Shown piece after piece: positions 13,206 to 59,090 of a DNA stretch of 64,000 bases. A model generated the notes under the pieces. The model was given only the letters and a program-made list of their open reading frames with translations. It did no database searches and was not told the origin of the DNA. Origin of the DNA: Heliocidaris erythrogramma (taxonomy: Eukaryota; Echinodermata; Echinoidea; Camarodonta; Echinometridae); NCBI GenBank assembly GCA_025617745.1, contig CM046853.1, positions 57,187,233 through 57,251,232 of the forward strand. Direction: 5' to 3'. Position 1 is the stretch's first letter, and each line of letters begins with the position of its first letter. The position numbers and the translations under genes were made by a program.

Positions 13206-13432
13206 AGTATTATTACCCTGGCTTTAGCCCAGGTGCCCTATAAGGCGGTGAAAGCAGTCAAGGAATAAATTTCTACCATGTATCCATTTACTACACCTGG
13301 GTGGAGAGTGGCGAATGTAGATGAATGTCTTGCCAAAAGACATTCGTGCCATGGCGGGATTCGAACAGTGAACCATGAGATCCACCATGAGATCCACAGT
13401 CCGGTGACGTAATCACTAGACCCCACGACACC
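13206..13432 (-). mobile_element. tRNA-derived SINE (minus strand)
   Basis: Read on the minus strand, a tRNA-like head (13345-13432) with a B-box GTTCGAATC is followed by the body GCCACTCTCCACCCAGGTGT. The same head-plus-body order occurs in the + strand SINE at 22330-22686. The head contains a short internal duplication (GATCTCATGGTG twice). The 3' tail is not clear. Confidence 0.75.
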
Positions 13433-21590: not shown

Positions 21591-22329
21591 AGGGGAGGGC
21601 TTCCACATTATCATAATTTCCTTGTTTCGAAATTAGATACATCACGAGTCCGAGTCAAATATTGACAAATATTTTTAAAGTGCGTCTCATAAGCTCAGGA
21701 GACCAATATTATTACCACCTATTACTCTAAAGATTGGTTGATATTTTATTTGGAGGAAACAACACTTTAACCCCTCTTTGTACACATAGCTTTCACATCA
21801 CATAGTGATGTTTATAATGGCCATATATTGAAAGACGATCATGGAACGACTTGACTGCCCCCCCAAAGTTCCTCAGCATGGTCATCCATCCAACTATATG
21901 AAGATCAACGCGGCCAAGTCAGATTAAACAGCGACCTCTCTGAACCCTTCCCCATCGTCAACGGCGTGAAACAGGGTTGCGTCCTGGCACCGACCCTGTT
22001 CAGTATCTTCTTCAGCATGATGCTCAAGCAGGCCACAGAAGACCTCGACGATGACGAGGTCGTGTATATCCGCTACCGCCTTGATGGCAGTATGTTCAAT
22101 CTCAGGAGACTGCAGGCCCACACAAAGACACTTGAGCAGCTGATCCGTGACCTTCTCTTTGCCGACGACGCTGCCCTCGCCGCCCACACTGAAAGAGCCC
22201 TGCATCGCCTAACATCCTGCTTTGCAGCGGCTGCGCAGCTCTTTGGACTCGTCAGTTTGAAGAAGACGGAATTCCTCCACCAGCCTGCACCCCGGAAGGA
22301 GTACCGCCCCCCCCCCCCAACATCACATC

Positions 22330-22686
22330 ACCATTGTGGATCAGCGGATAAGTCCCCGGACTGTGAACCACGAGGTCCGGGGTTCGAATCTCACCGCAGC
22401 ACTAGCGTCCTTTTGCAAGACGTTAATCTACATTTGCCACTCTCCACCCAGGTGTTAAATGGGTACCCGGTAGGATGGTGAAAGTTAATGTCGTTTGCTT
22501 AGCACGTGAGCGTCACTGTACTGCCCATTGCTGGAATGCTCCCCAGGGAGTGGAGAATGTGCATACATTGTGTGCGGGCGTGCCAGAATCTAATGACCGG
22601 GGTAATGATATATATCTAGCGCTTTGGGCCAGTTTGGGAAAGGCGCTTTATAAATGCCATGTATTATTATTATTATTATTATTATT
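22330..22686 (+). mobile_element. tRNA-derived SINE (plus strand)
   Basis: A tRNA-like head at 22334-22400 has a clear B-box (GGTTCGAATC) and a weaker A-box (TGGATCAGCGG). The body contains GCCACTCTCCACCCAGGTGT and GCGCTTTGGGCCAGTTTGGG-AAGCGCTTTATAAATGCC, and the tail is (ATT)8 at about 22665-22686. It interrupts the LINE frame: ACCATT before the head joins GGCGAGACTGAG after the tail to restore the RT reading. Confidence 0.9.
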
Positions 22687-23596
22687 GGCGAGACTGAGTT
22701 GAAAGCAGTTCACCAGTTTACCTACCTGGGGTGCACCATCACATCAATGCCAAGATCGACAGGGAAGTAGACAACAGACTGGCCAAGGCAAACAGCCCTT
22801 TTGGCAGACTCTACAACAGAGTCTGGAACAACAAGCACATGAAGCAGGGCACCAAGATCAGCGTCTATAGAGCCGTTGTACTCCCCACCCTGATGTACGG
22901 CTCTGAGTCATGGGTAACATACCGTCACAACCAACGACTCCTTGAGCGTTTCCACCAGCGCTGTCTTCGCACCATCCTCAACATACATAGGAGCGAACGT
23001 CACAAACGTTGAGGTTCTCGGCCAGGCGGAGATCACCAGCATTGAGGCCATGTTGCTGAAGTCACAGCTATGATGGGCGGGGCACGTCTCCAGAATGGAG
23101 GACCACCGCCTGCCCTGTACGGTGAACTCTCCACTGGTCACCGTGACAGAGGGGCACCGAAGACGCCTGCCACATTGACCACTGCCAGCACTTACAAATG
23201 ACCGGCAGGCCTGGCGCCACACCGTTCACCAGGCAGTCTCTTCATTTGAGGACTCCCGCAGGGCCAACCTGAGGGAGACACGCTGCAGGTGGAACACTGA
23301 TAGCAGAAAGTGGTAAAAATTACGTGATATTTTCGTCGTGGTTTTCGTCTTTTTTACGTCCTGTAATTACGTCAATAAGACGACAACTTGCACCAACCCA
23401 AGACGTCAAGAGGACGTCTTATTTTGACGTCATCTGTACACTGTAAAAACTGAAGTGCTGTATATAGCACTTTTTGAGGGCATGCATAGGGACTGCACTC
23501 AGAGTACTATTGAATGCACACAGCGTGCTATTTCAGCACCTTCACGGGAGCTGGACCGGCTCCTTAAACTGCTAAACATTCTTAAAAAAATGAATT

Positions 23597-23660
23597 GGAC
23601 GAGCTTCGAACCAGGATCCGCTGATCGAGAATTACTGGCATTACCGCTAGACTAACTCAC
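23597..23660 (-). ncRNA. tRNA-like unit, leftward, copy 1
   Basis: On the minus strand the A-box TAGTCTAGCGG and B-box GGTTCGAAGC fit the Pol III consensus forms TRGYNNANNGG and GWTCRANNC. A T7 run follows directly (A7 at 23584-23590 on the plus strand), the usual Pol III stop. The acceptor and T stems do not pair well, so this is tRNA-derived, not a working tRNA gene. Confidence 0.6.
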
Positions 23661-23764
23661 ATTGTACGATTTAGAGCAGATCATATTGTTACATATTGAA
23701 TTTACGACACCACATAGTTCATGTTATCTACTTGACTCCCATGACTAAACTGGATTGCAAGAAG

Positions 23765-23834
23765 CATTCGTTAGTCCATCGGTAACGTCAGCGCCTCTCA
23801 ATCAGCGCAACCTGGTTCGAGGCTCGCCACGGTC
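23765..23834 (+). ncRNA. tRNA-like unit, rightward, copy 1
   Basis: A-box TAGTCCATCGG and B-box GGTTCGAGGC match Pol III promoter consensus, and a T9 run follows within a few bases. It diverges from the leftward unit about 100 bp away. Stems are imperfect, so a tRNA-derived promoter module is more likely than a functional tRNA. Confidence 0.6.
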
Positions 23835-24187
23835 ACATTTTTTTTTGCTGGTAAATTAGCACACTACAAGTGCTATAAACAGCATTTCAGGTGCAGTCAC
23901 TAAACATGCCCCTAAAAGTAGCACTTTAGTTTTTACAGTGTACAAGACGTAGAGATGACTTCAAAATAAGACGTCCTCTTGACGTCTTGCGTTGGTGCAA
24001 GTTGTCGTCTTATTTTGACGTCATCTGTACACTGTAAAAACTGAAGTGCTGTATATAGCACTTTTTGAGGGCATGCATAGGGACTGCACTCAGAGTACTA
24101 TTGAATGCACACAGCGTGCTATTTCAGCACCTTCACGGGAGCTGGACCGGCTCCTTAAACTGCTAAACATTCTTTAAAAAATGATTT

Positions 24188-24251
24188 GGACGAGCTTCGA
24201 ACCAGGATCCGCTGATCGAGAATTACTGGCATTACCGCTAGACTAACTCAC
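24188..24251 (-). ncRNA. tRNA-like unit, leftward, copy 2
   Basis: Same A-box, B-box and T-run as the unit at 23597-23660. Confidence 0.6.
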
Positions 24252-24355
24252 ATTGTACGATTTAGAGCAGATCATATTGTTACATATTGAATTTACGACA
24301 CCACATAGTTCATGTTATCTACTTGACTCCCATGACTAAACTGGATTGCAAGAAG

Positions 24356-24425
24356 CATTCGTTAGTCCATCGGTAACGTCAGCGCCTCTCAATCAGCGCA
24401 ACCTGGTTCGAGGCTCGCCACGGTC
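24356..24425 (+). ncRNA. tRNA-like unit, rightward, copy 2
   Basis: Same A-box, B-box and T9 run as the unit at 23765-23834. Confidence 0.6.
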
Positions 24426-24682
24426 ACATTTTTTTTTGCTGGTAAATTAGCACACTACAAGTGCTATAAACAGCATTTCAGGTGCAGTCACTAAACATGC
24501 CCCTAAAAGTAGCACTTTAGTTTTTACAGTGTACAAGACGTAGAGATGACTTCAAAATAAGACGTCCTCTTGACGTCTTGCGTTGGGGCAAGTTGTCGTC
24601 TTATTGACGTAATTACAGGACGTAAAAAAGACGAAAACCGCGACGTAAATATCACGTCATTTTTAACACTTTCTGCTATCAG

Positions 24683-24843
24683 GGAAGAGGAATGAAGACG
24701 TAGAGATGACGTCAAAATAACACGTCCTCTTGACGTCTTGCGTTGGTGCAAGTTGTCGTCTTATTGACGTAATTACAGGACGTAAAAAAGACGAAAACCA
24801 CGACGTAAATATCACGTCATTTTTTAACACTTTCTGCTATCAG
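24683..24843. mobile_element. Right half of a further composite element
   Basis: Repeats the right outer arm (AGACGTAGAGATGACGTC to CTTTCTGCTATCAG) without an inner element or left end. Probably a partial tandem duplication of the composite. Confidence 0.75.
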
Positions 24844-25206
24844 GGAAGGACCTGGTAGCCTCGGTAGCAGTACTAGACCAGACCTTTGATTGCAGTCGCT
24901 GTGGCCTGACTTGCCTGTCGCGCATCGGCCTTGTCAGCCACCAGCGTGCCTGCAATCGACGTGGACAGCCCCCTTCATAGATCTTCGTTCGCGAAGCTAA
25001 GCCAAGAAGAAGATTGAAAGACATTATAAGTAGAGTCGTAAAATTATATAGGATTTCAGGAGGGCGTAACCTCATCATTCTTCATACTTCTTATTCTGCA
25101 CTTTAGATTAATAAGATAAAGTCTCTTTTTCACCCATATACTGTGTTCCATTAAAATGCTCAAAGTGTCTTCAAGATAGAACAATGGAGATCAATATGGA
25201 GATCCT

Positions 25207-25500: not shown

Positions 25501-49480
<23,980 letters not shown>

Positions 49481-57208: not shown

Positions 57209-57520
57209 AGAAAAAACCGTGGAACAGATATTGGTCTATAGTTGGTAAGTTGTCTTTTATCCCCAGTCTTAAATATAGGTGTGACTCTAGCAATTTTCAG
57301 TAAGTCTGGAAAATTCCCTTTAAAGTGATAAATTGAAAATATGACACAGCGGTTTAGATATATACCGAATCGCACTTTTAGTTACTCTGGGACTGAATTA
57401 GTCTAAACCTGCAGATATATTATTTTCAAAGGAGTTGACAGTATTTCATTTTTATCTGCAGGATATAAAAGTAGAGAATCATCAGGCGGAATGTTCATGT
57501 ATGTCCGAATGTCAATGTCC
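57209..57520 (-). pseudogene. Older LINE, upstream part
   Basis: Minus strand: IPPDDSLLLYPADKNEI, then FPDLLKIARVTPIFKTGD and LTNYRPIS, stopping exactly where the I-type LINE inserted. The remainder is at 49765-51347. Its own 5' side is cut at 57520 by the composite palindromic element. Confidence 0.85.
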
Positions 57521-58261
57521 CTGATAGCAGAAAGAGGAAAAAATGACGTGATATTTACGCCGTCGTTTACGTCTTTTTTACGTCCTGTAATTACGTGAAT
57601 AAGACAACTTGCACCAACGCAAGACGTCATGATGACGTCTTGAGGACGTCATCTTTACGTCTTGTACACTGTAAAAACTAAAGCGCTACTTTTAGGGGCA
57701 TGTATAGTGGCTGCATCTGAAATGCCGTTTGTAGCACTTGTAGTGTGCTAATTTACCAGCAAAAAAAAAATGTGACCGTGGCGAGCCTCGAACCAGGCTC
57801 CGCTGATTGAGAGGCGCTGACGTTACCGATGGACTAACGAATGCTTCTTGCAATCCAGTTTAGTCATGGGAGTCAAGTAGATAACATGAACTATGTGGTG
57901 TCGTAAATTCACTATGTAACAATATGATCTGCTCTACATCGTACGATGTGAGTTAGTCTAGCGGTAATGGCAGCAATTCTCGCAGTTTAAGGAGCCGGTC
58001 CAGCTCCCGTGAAAGTGCTGAAATAGCACGTTGTGTGCATTCAATAGCACTCTGAGTGCAGTCCCTATGCATGCCCTCAAAAAGTGCTATATACACTGAG
58101 CACTTCAGTTTTTACAGTGTACAGATGACGTCAAAATGAGACGTCCTCTTGACGTCTTGCGTTGGTGCAAGTTGTCGTCTTATTGACGTAATTACAGGAC
58201 GTAAAAAAGACGAAAACCACGACGTAAATATCACGTCATTTTTAACACTTTCTGCTATCAG
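57521..58261. mobile_element. Composite palindromic element, second locus, 741 bp
   Basis: CTGATAGCAGAAAG and CTTTCTGCTATCAG ends enclose CpG-rich arms (GACGTAATTACAGGACG types) and a single inner element at 57667-58119 in the orientation opposite to the copies near 24 kb. It interrupts the older LINE. A target duplication could not be assigned. Confidence 0.85.
57667..58119. mobile_element. Inner MITE, copy 3, 453 bp, TA target site
   Basis: Inverted ends CACTGTAAAAACT and AGTTTTTACAGTG with TA on both sides (57665-57666, 58120-58121). One tRNA-like unit (minus, about 57772-57842: A-box TAGTCCATCGG, B-box GGTTCGAGGC, T10 run just beyond) is intact. The other (plus, from about 57949, A-box TAGTCTAGCGG) has lost its B-box in a deletion of about 50 bp relative to copies 1 and 2. 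Confidence 0.85.
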
Positions 58262-59090
58262 GGGTAATGAATCGATGCGGAGGCAGTTTCTTTTAATGGT
58301 CTGTCATCTTGTTGTTCTTTATTCAGTTACTCAGTGCTTTTCAATGTTCCATAAAAGGGGATTTTACAATGATTTTACCCAAGTTCAATACAGGTAAAAC
58401 AACGATATCCTCCGTGTTTCCATGATAACCTGTACCGAAGCTTTCGATCTGTACTTGACATTCATCAATCCATCCATGTGTCAAGAAATGAACCTCTTGA
58501 ACTTTTTTTTTTTTACTGCTACAAAACTCGATAAATGAGATAGAGACAAATGTAAAATTATATTTTAACTTTATTATTCAAGGTTTACTTTTTTTGATTT
58601 TCTGTCTTTAGTGGCACGTTTGGAAATATAAATCATACACTATGGTGAATTGATCAGATAAACATACATAAATAAACTCATCTTATAAAAATAATGACGA
58701 TCCATCTTTCATGTATAAGCCTATAATCGTCTGCCCTCTGCTGGACGTCACGCCGACTCGGCCCCTCAATAGCCTCCGCCAATAGCGCCGTCCCCAGTTA
58801 GAGTCCCTCGGAGCCTCTCTTTGGTTAATATCATCGATGGGTCTCGGATCGAGATAGAGTTCCTCTCATGCGAGAACGGTGTAACGGGCAGTTGGAACTC
58901 TCATCTCGTGAAGAAGAATTACCCCCAGAAAAACGTACTTCTGCCCCAAGTGATGTGTGACATATTGACTAGCTTAAAAGTGTTCTCCCTGAGTATGAAC
59001 TTTGAACTTTTATTTGATTAATGGTGCCTCAGCTGCTAGGGCTATTTGCACCAAACCTTACATTATAAAAGAAAATTAAATCACACTGAT
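58262..59090. other. No gene recognised
   Basis: Non-coding. The frame at 58821-59021 (66 codons) has no known motif. CTGCCCTCTGCTGGACGTCA near 58732 resembles a MITE end, but no partner was found. Confidence 0.45.

Follow-up and report, generated by a model that had tools for sequence, protein, structure and literature searches.

Divergent tRNA-like units with Pol III-type boxes in a chimeric, two-layered DNA transposon of Heliocidaris erythrogramma

Palindromic (snap-back) MITEs of TA-duplicating transposons are short, self-complementary elements with terminal inverted repeats (TIRs) and TA flanks, and occur in many copies. The inner element described here is alike in all of these traits, but differs by the presence of Pol III-type boxes in the inner parts of its arms. 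The closest precedent that we found is MER6/MER6A, a Tc1/mariner MITE that houses an Ac1-like V-SINE; this SINE is reported to have lost the head module and hence the ability to be transcribed (PMC6887750). Like MER6, our element is a MITE of a TIR transposon that contains SINE-derived sequence and was spread by transposon amplification; unlike in MER6, the tRNA-like promoter part is kept, two such parts face outwards, and the MITE lies inside another transposon that amplified it. The element is a variant of the chimeric MITE and not a new class. A literature search, judged by titles and the starts of abstracts and with Repbase and most subscription journals outside its scope, returned no description of paired Pol III units in a MITE, which is weak evidence of novelty.

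The window, a stretch of 64,000 nucleotides of the H. erythrogramma genome (contig CM046853.1), contains two adjacent copies of an inner TA-MITE, each 502 bp long (copy 1, 23439-23940; copy 2, 24030-24531). Copy 1 is flanked by TA at 23437-23438 and 23941-23942, and its TIR reads CACTGTAAAAACTGAAGTGC. The ends of the MITE form 25-bp arms that are 96% complementary, as in the TIRs of a MITE, and its self-folding was better than that of 100 out of 100 shuffled sequences (z = -10.4), corresponding to an imperfect palindrome. No ORF of 150 aa was found in the window copies. Each of the two copies carries a left and a right tRNA-like unit. In copy 1, the left unit (23584-23656, -) comprises an A box at 23644-23654 (TAGTCTAGCGG), a B box at 23602-23612 (GGTTCGAAGC at 23603-23612) and a T7 run at 23584-23590; the right unit (23770-23846, +) comprises an A box at 23772-23782 (TAGTCCATCGG), a B box at 23814-23824 (GGTTCGAGGC at 23814-23823) and a T9 run at 23838-23846. 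In copy 2, the left unit is located at 24175-24247 (-) and ends in T6, and the right unit at 24361-24437 (+). The initial annotation had described 502-bp, TA-flanked elements with divergent leftward and rightward tRNA-like units, which was confirmed for both copies, and A and B boxes were located in all four units where it had placed them; the T-runs of T7-T9 that it gave after each unit were also found, except for the T6 run of the left unit of copy 2.

The left arm of the MITE is homologous to the right arm, with gaps, and this homology includes the units; the pair therefore looks like a single unit in inverted duplication. A strict pattern of A box, B box and T5 matched five times in the window, each time within the inner-MITE family; by chance, it occurred 0.005 times per dinucleotide shuffle, with 1 out of 200 shuffles having any match. 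Since the five matches are related copies, they indicate a pattern not due to chance and do not represent five independent events.

Both copies are contained in a larger, non-autonomous outer element (23295-24845), in which the inner MITE occurs twice and the right arm is doubled, and which is flanked by a 2-bp target-site duplication (TSD), AA, at 23293-23294 and 24846-24847. Copy 2 arose by a 591-bp tandem duplication: identity at that shift spans about 23411 to 24010, at the junction (23943-24027, +) the start of the right arm joins directly onto the left arm's end, and copies 1 and 2 show 2 differences over 510 positions, the TGTA ends being counted in. The two copies had been regarded as separate TA insertions; instead, they result from tandem duplication inside a larger element with a 2-bp TSD, and their common flanks and the tandem duplication rule out that they inserted at TA sites independently of each other. 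The outer element has GACGTC-rich arms and the TIR CCCTGATAGCAGAAAGTG, with a left end that here reads CACTGATAGC; its TIRs can also be written CCCTGATAGCAG, the family TIR being CCCTGATAGC. It is inserted in a repeat that carries an ORF for a reverse transcriptase (21966-22481; PF00078, E = 3.6e-07) and that we take to be a LINE from its looks, and the joined flanks, minus the element and one AA, gave a continuous reading frame. A second outer element of 745 bp (57519-58263, -), with the 2-bp TSD GT (+ strand), contains one inner MITE. This third copy (57663-58123, -; inner MITE at 57667-58119) has an intact right unit and a left unit broken by a 54-bp deletion, through which the B box and the T-run were lost. 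Both the third copy and the outer flanks common to all three window copies had been overlooked in the initial annotation.

A search of the source genome (1.064 Gb in 26 contigs) with the 502-bp query gave 263 first-look candidates, 40 of which were scored. Among these 40, at least 39 were full-length copies outside the window, 96-98% identical, which we examined with 1-kb flanks. Outer arms, mostly of 140 bp on the left and 149 bp on the right, were present on both sides in 38 of these 39 near-identical copies and on the left side only in the other (L018). The outer ends were unreadable in six copies (L009, L018, L024, L033, L038 and L047). The 2-bp TSD was exact in 32 of the 33 readable copies; in the 33rd (L020), it was mis-set by one base and read CT/CT by eye. 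Two pairs (L013/L019 and L029/L037) have common flanks, so that the 33 readings do not correspond to 33 independent insertions. The duplicated dinucleotides were TA, AT, AA, CT, GT, TG, TT, TC and GA, and this variability indicates that the outer element is not TA-specific. The assumed empty outer site had no match at up to 2 mismatches.

CACTA/EnSpm-like elements are recognized by a TSD of 2-3 bp and CCC/CAC termini. The outer layer shows both features (32 of the 33 readable copies out of 39), and we take it to be CACTA/EnSpm-like by its ends and TSD rather than by a transposase. It resembles non-autonomous members of that group in its 2-bp TSD of free sequence, its TIR starting with CCC and its GACGTC-rich arms, but differs from them in containing a whole inner MITE. 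The right arm was often doubled among copies L010-L047, and fourfold once (L037); matching 2-bp duplications lie outside the last arm of these copies, which suggests that elements with repeated arms were mobile in that form.

Copies of the inner MITE outside the outer element were sought with a pattern in which the inner end is preceded by any base but the usual one of the outer element. This gave 83 places, of which 80 were fetched (L056-L135) and 3 left out. Among the 80 TIR-sampled loci, 39 were located within outer arms, 32 were outside them (solo loci) and 9 belonged to a longer relative. Both ends were present in 23 of the 32 solo loci; at least one strict A-B-T unit was found in all 23, and both units in 9. 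In 22 of these 23 loci the right end reads AGTG followed by TA, consistent with a TA-duplicating element; the left TA belonged to the search pattern and was hence selected for. Among the solo loci without a right end (9 out of 32), a strict-pattern unit was observed in 2. An alignment of 21 both-ended copies was made, omitting L058 and L092, which have the same flanks as L056 and L091, respectively. Both units are present in its consensus, in which no tail was seen; individually, 8 copies had both units, 7 the right unit only and 6 the left unit only. These loci lie outside outer arms, and the hybrid thus exists in its own right, apart from the composite. The idea of a hybrid between a transposon and tRNA-like units was borne out to the extent that a TIR/TA element with a divergent pair exists on its own, whereas its context in the window had been misread.

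The longer relative, which shares the TIR of the inner MITE, was represented by L057, L061, L067, L069, L088, L090, L107, L124 and L135, and no tRNA-like unit was found in these nine loci within the 850-1500 bp examined. As relatives with the same TIR are without a unit, it is the TIR, not the unit, that defines the mobile family. The relative spans 1488 bp in L061, where the longest stop-to-stop frame of the 3-kb locus is 168 aa, and it may sit closer to an autonomous partner. One solo MITE (L071) is broken by a long, GACGTC-rich insertion with an end of the CCCTGATAGC type, for which about 6 kb of sequence showed neither another end nor an ORF of 100 aa. A transposase was detected neither for the inner layer (3-kb locus of L061) nor for the outer layer (about 6 kb of L071), and the end patterns gave 0 matches each in viral_contigs. 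As read from these sequences, the TIRs and target duplications show a transposase-type movement of the composite and support the same for the MITE; we hold the structure and the mobility of both layers with high confidence.

The A and B boxes, their spacing and the T-runs of the units are those of a Pol III type 2 promoter. Indeed, the gap between the two boxes was 32 nt in 157 of the 160 pattern-fitting units (24-40 nt allowed, at least T4 required); the length of the T-run was labile among copies. Likeness to tRNAs was assessed against a small set of 10 tRNA genes of 4 isotypes (Asp, Lys, Thr and Arg), in which tRNA-Asp had been included for its look-alike sequence. Within this set, the right-unit solo consensus was best with the tRNA-Asp of the source genome (z = 7.9 versus shuffles), with which it aligns along most of its length, and the left unit was best with tRNA-Arg (z = 5.3; tRNA-Asp, z = 3.0). 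The genome search for the tRNA family covered 63 scored places of 104536 candidates. Intact tRNA genes were ruled out, since a search for the tRNA family RF00005, with E values of up to 10 allowed, gave no match in the window copy or in five solo loci, and ARAGORN made no call in the units with default settings; relaxed settings gave weak candidates on both strands, which were set aside. When the left and right consensus units were compared, 1 of 22 positions mismatched in the boxes versus 7 of 36 in the rest (p = 0.11, with a left B-box mask 3 bases off). The units share with tRNA-derived SINEs the tRNA-like A and B boxes and the T-run, and a tRNA-like head, less clearly so for the left unit; they differ in being internal and paired rather than a head at the 5' end, between TIR ends with TA or 2-bp duplications and with no tail.

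We propose the following history. In a first layer, a non-autonomous, TA-duplicating element of ~500 bp would have captured a tRNA-derived Pol III unit, of which the right unit is tRNA-Asp-like, and inverted duplication of the arm would have given two outward units, each with its T-run just inside the subterminal repeats. As the left and right arms are homologous, a single capture followed by inverted duplication would be the simplest course. In a second layer, one solo MITE would have inserted into another non-autonomous element before the recent spread, and the resulting composite (2-bp TSD, CCCTGATAGC TIR, GACGTC-rich arms) would then have spread recently. TFIIIC probably continues to bind the A and B boxes, and Pol III to use them, with predicted RNAs of ~75-90 nt that would end before the TIRs; the gain for the element may be an open centre with no transcripts crossing the transposase-binding ends. 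We give this reading as a whole, a chimeric DNA transposon of two layers with Pol III units predicted to be still in use, an even chance of being correct; taken by itself, the prediction that the units are working promoters, made from sequence, comes close to even, or falls slightly short of it.

Conservation of the boxes (44 sites) was assessed by parsimony on a FastTree tree of 96 rows, comprising 74 composite copies, the window copy and 21 solo copies. The composite copies were chosen by likeness to the window copy (39) or by TIR pattern (35), without direct use of the boxes; 4 of the 39 arm-embedded loci, which have no right end, were omitted (L081, L086, L100 and L126). Over the 96 rows, the boxes underwent 48 changes, versus a mean of 80.9 for masks shifted over the non-TIR span, 2 out of 459 being as low. 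Four 11-bp windows drawn at random gave a value as low as that of the boxes in 25 out of 20000 sets, and CpG-matched site draws did so in 0 out of 20000. Lower numbers were observed on internal branches (9 versus 24.3 changes; 8 out of 459 as low) and on terminal branches (39 versus 56.6; 21 out of 459), as well as in the composite set alone (34 versus 58.2; 8 out of 459 shifted masks and 88 out of 20000 random sets as low). Changes per site amounted to 1.09 in the boxes, 0.48 in the left TIR, 1.14 in the right TIR and 1.53-2.25 in the other parts; the TIR belonged to the pattern with which 56 copies were fetched, so its low rate is partly selected. At CpG sites, 0.25 changes per site were counted in the boxes versus 2.61 elsewhere, and mutated CpG dinucleotide cells amounted to 2 out of 372 versus 125 out of 1285, respectively, although these cells share ancestry and are not independent. 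Overall, this is moderate evidence, drawn from sequence comparison, that the boxes influence which copies give rise to descendants, or that they are shielded from CpG mutation.

In the same chimera, the units could be dead passengers that stem from the head of a tRNA or SINE, caught once, doubled by the palindrome and copied by the transposase with no role of its own. This is the strongest of the alternatives, and we rate it as possible, clearly below even. It is favoured by the 21 solo copies, which taken alone show no significant box constraint (28 versus 33.0 changes; 134 out of 459 shifted masks, 5747 out of 20000 random sets and 2988 out of 20000 CpG-matched draws as low) and of which 13 have lost one unit, as well as by the 39 copies nearest to the window copy, in which about 1% change was observed everywhere, with no box constraint (left B-box mask 23605-23615, 3 bases off). 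The units being without a match to the tRNA model, and the existence of same-TIR relatives without units, point the same way. Against it, the boxes change less than shifted masks and random window sets both over the 96 rows and in the composite set, and at least one unit was kept in every both-ended solo copy. Among the observations named in the initial annotation as counting against its reading were a lack of intact boxes in most copies and boxes no better conserved than their flanks. The first was not seen in the composites, where both units were intact in 57 out of 74 copies and one unit in 17, but it was made for the pair in solo copies, where 13 out of 21 had one unit and 8 both. The second was absent over the 96 rows and in the composite set, and held in the solo copies taken alone and in the 39 nearest copies.

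So-called extra TFIIIC sites provide a likeness for a bound boundary or accessibility role, and the boxes could likewise be TFIIIC sites without transcription, forming nucleosome-free boundary or accessibility sites that aid the transposase, with incidental T-runs. The rarity of mutated CpGs in the boxes, as in protein-protected or unmethylated DNA (the cells not being independent), and the lability of the T-runs are consistent with such a role; however, outward units that each have a T-run, alike in the solo and composite consensus, look like transcription units, and we consider this explanation unlikely. That the element is a SINE, reverse-transcribed from a Pol III unit, would account for the tRNA-like boxes and T-runs but is highly improbable given TIRs at both ends, TA flanks, the 2-bp TSD of the composite, internal and doubled units and a consensus without a tail; for the composite, SINE-type mobility is contradicted by the 2-bp TSDs and full TIRs in 32 of the 33 readable copies. 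It is equally improbable that the 502-bp unit is merely the middle of a larger element with a 2-bp TSD, as the outer arms on both sides of 38 of the 39 nearest copies could suggest, since the solo copies contradict it, 32 of the 80 loci lying outside the arms, 23 of them both-ended and 22 with a right-end TA, with homologous bodies.

The mode of copying separates class I from class II mobile elements. Here, in more than one family, class II elements bear the promoter that defines tRNA-type SINEs. If these promoters work, they would turn the many young loci spread by transposase into mobile start sites for Pol III, and help from Pol III or TFIIIC to the survival of a DNA transposon would become testable; even if the units are passengers, tRNA-derived sequence spreads here without reverse transcription.

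Two other TIR families with tRNA-like units were observed in the window. The element at 40180-40545, with the ends GCGTCTTTTTTTTTTGTAACCAAGCCTAGGC, contains one internal tRNA-like unit after a TATAATAAAA stretch, and its family gave 1724 first-look candidates in the source genome, 40 of which were scored. Inspection by eye revealed duplications of 9 bp in several copies, among them L053, L051, L161, L164 and L170, and none in L055. Mutator-like elements are characterized by a TSD of 8-9 bp and TIRs, and this family shows both, the duplications being read by eye in several copies. Both boxes were found by pattern in 24 of the 28 aligned rows. The third family, represented at 44338-44745, has a different, 61-bp TIR pair around a tRNA-like core that is 80% identical over 166 bp to the core of 40180-40545; it gave 1430 first-look candidates, 40 of which were scored, and both boxes were found in 21 out of 21 rows. 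It adjoins a larger palindromic repeat (arms 44746-45739 and 46352-47386) with GGGGTAGTTGTCC arrays, and the flanks of 20 fetched copies were common with this surrounding repeat. In this case too, a larger sequence seems to have captured a TIR unit with a tRNA-like core. No box constraint was detected in the second and third families, which show little divergence (6 changes versus 4.6 expected, and 2 versus 3.3). Between the two cores, the boxes were identical at 20 out of 22 positions and the sequences were alike elsewhere too, 61 out of 297 shifts being as high.

More speculatively, non-autonomous DNA transposons of the source genome may recurrently capture tRNA-derived Pol III units (at least two times; TA, 2-bp and 9-bp duplications), and the pair of units may help the MITE to win, with TFIIIC and Pol III opening its centre in the germ line and broken-box copies leaving fewer descendants. 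We regard this broader proposal as rather doubtful; were its reading of success true, a DNA transposon would depend on Pol III for its success.

Further tRNA-like sequences were noted. A tRNA-like head (GTTGGTCTAGTGG ... GATTCGAA) is located at 28870-28940 (-), near a 91-bp direct repeat (28960-29050 and 29251-29341) that is 95.6% identical. Three other sequences, at 22325-22680, 37680-37766 (-) and 13273-13366 (-), resemble tRNA-derived SINEs of the ordinary kind; an (ATT)n tail is present in the first, whose head is best with a tRNA-Thr gene of the source genome. In the genome, tRNA genes were found in clusters at G000:C12:18858807-18889677 and G000:C3:18215704-18335090, whose typed members were two tRNA-Lys(TTT) in the C12 cluster and one tRNA-Asp(GTC) in the C3 cluster.
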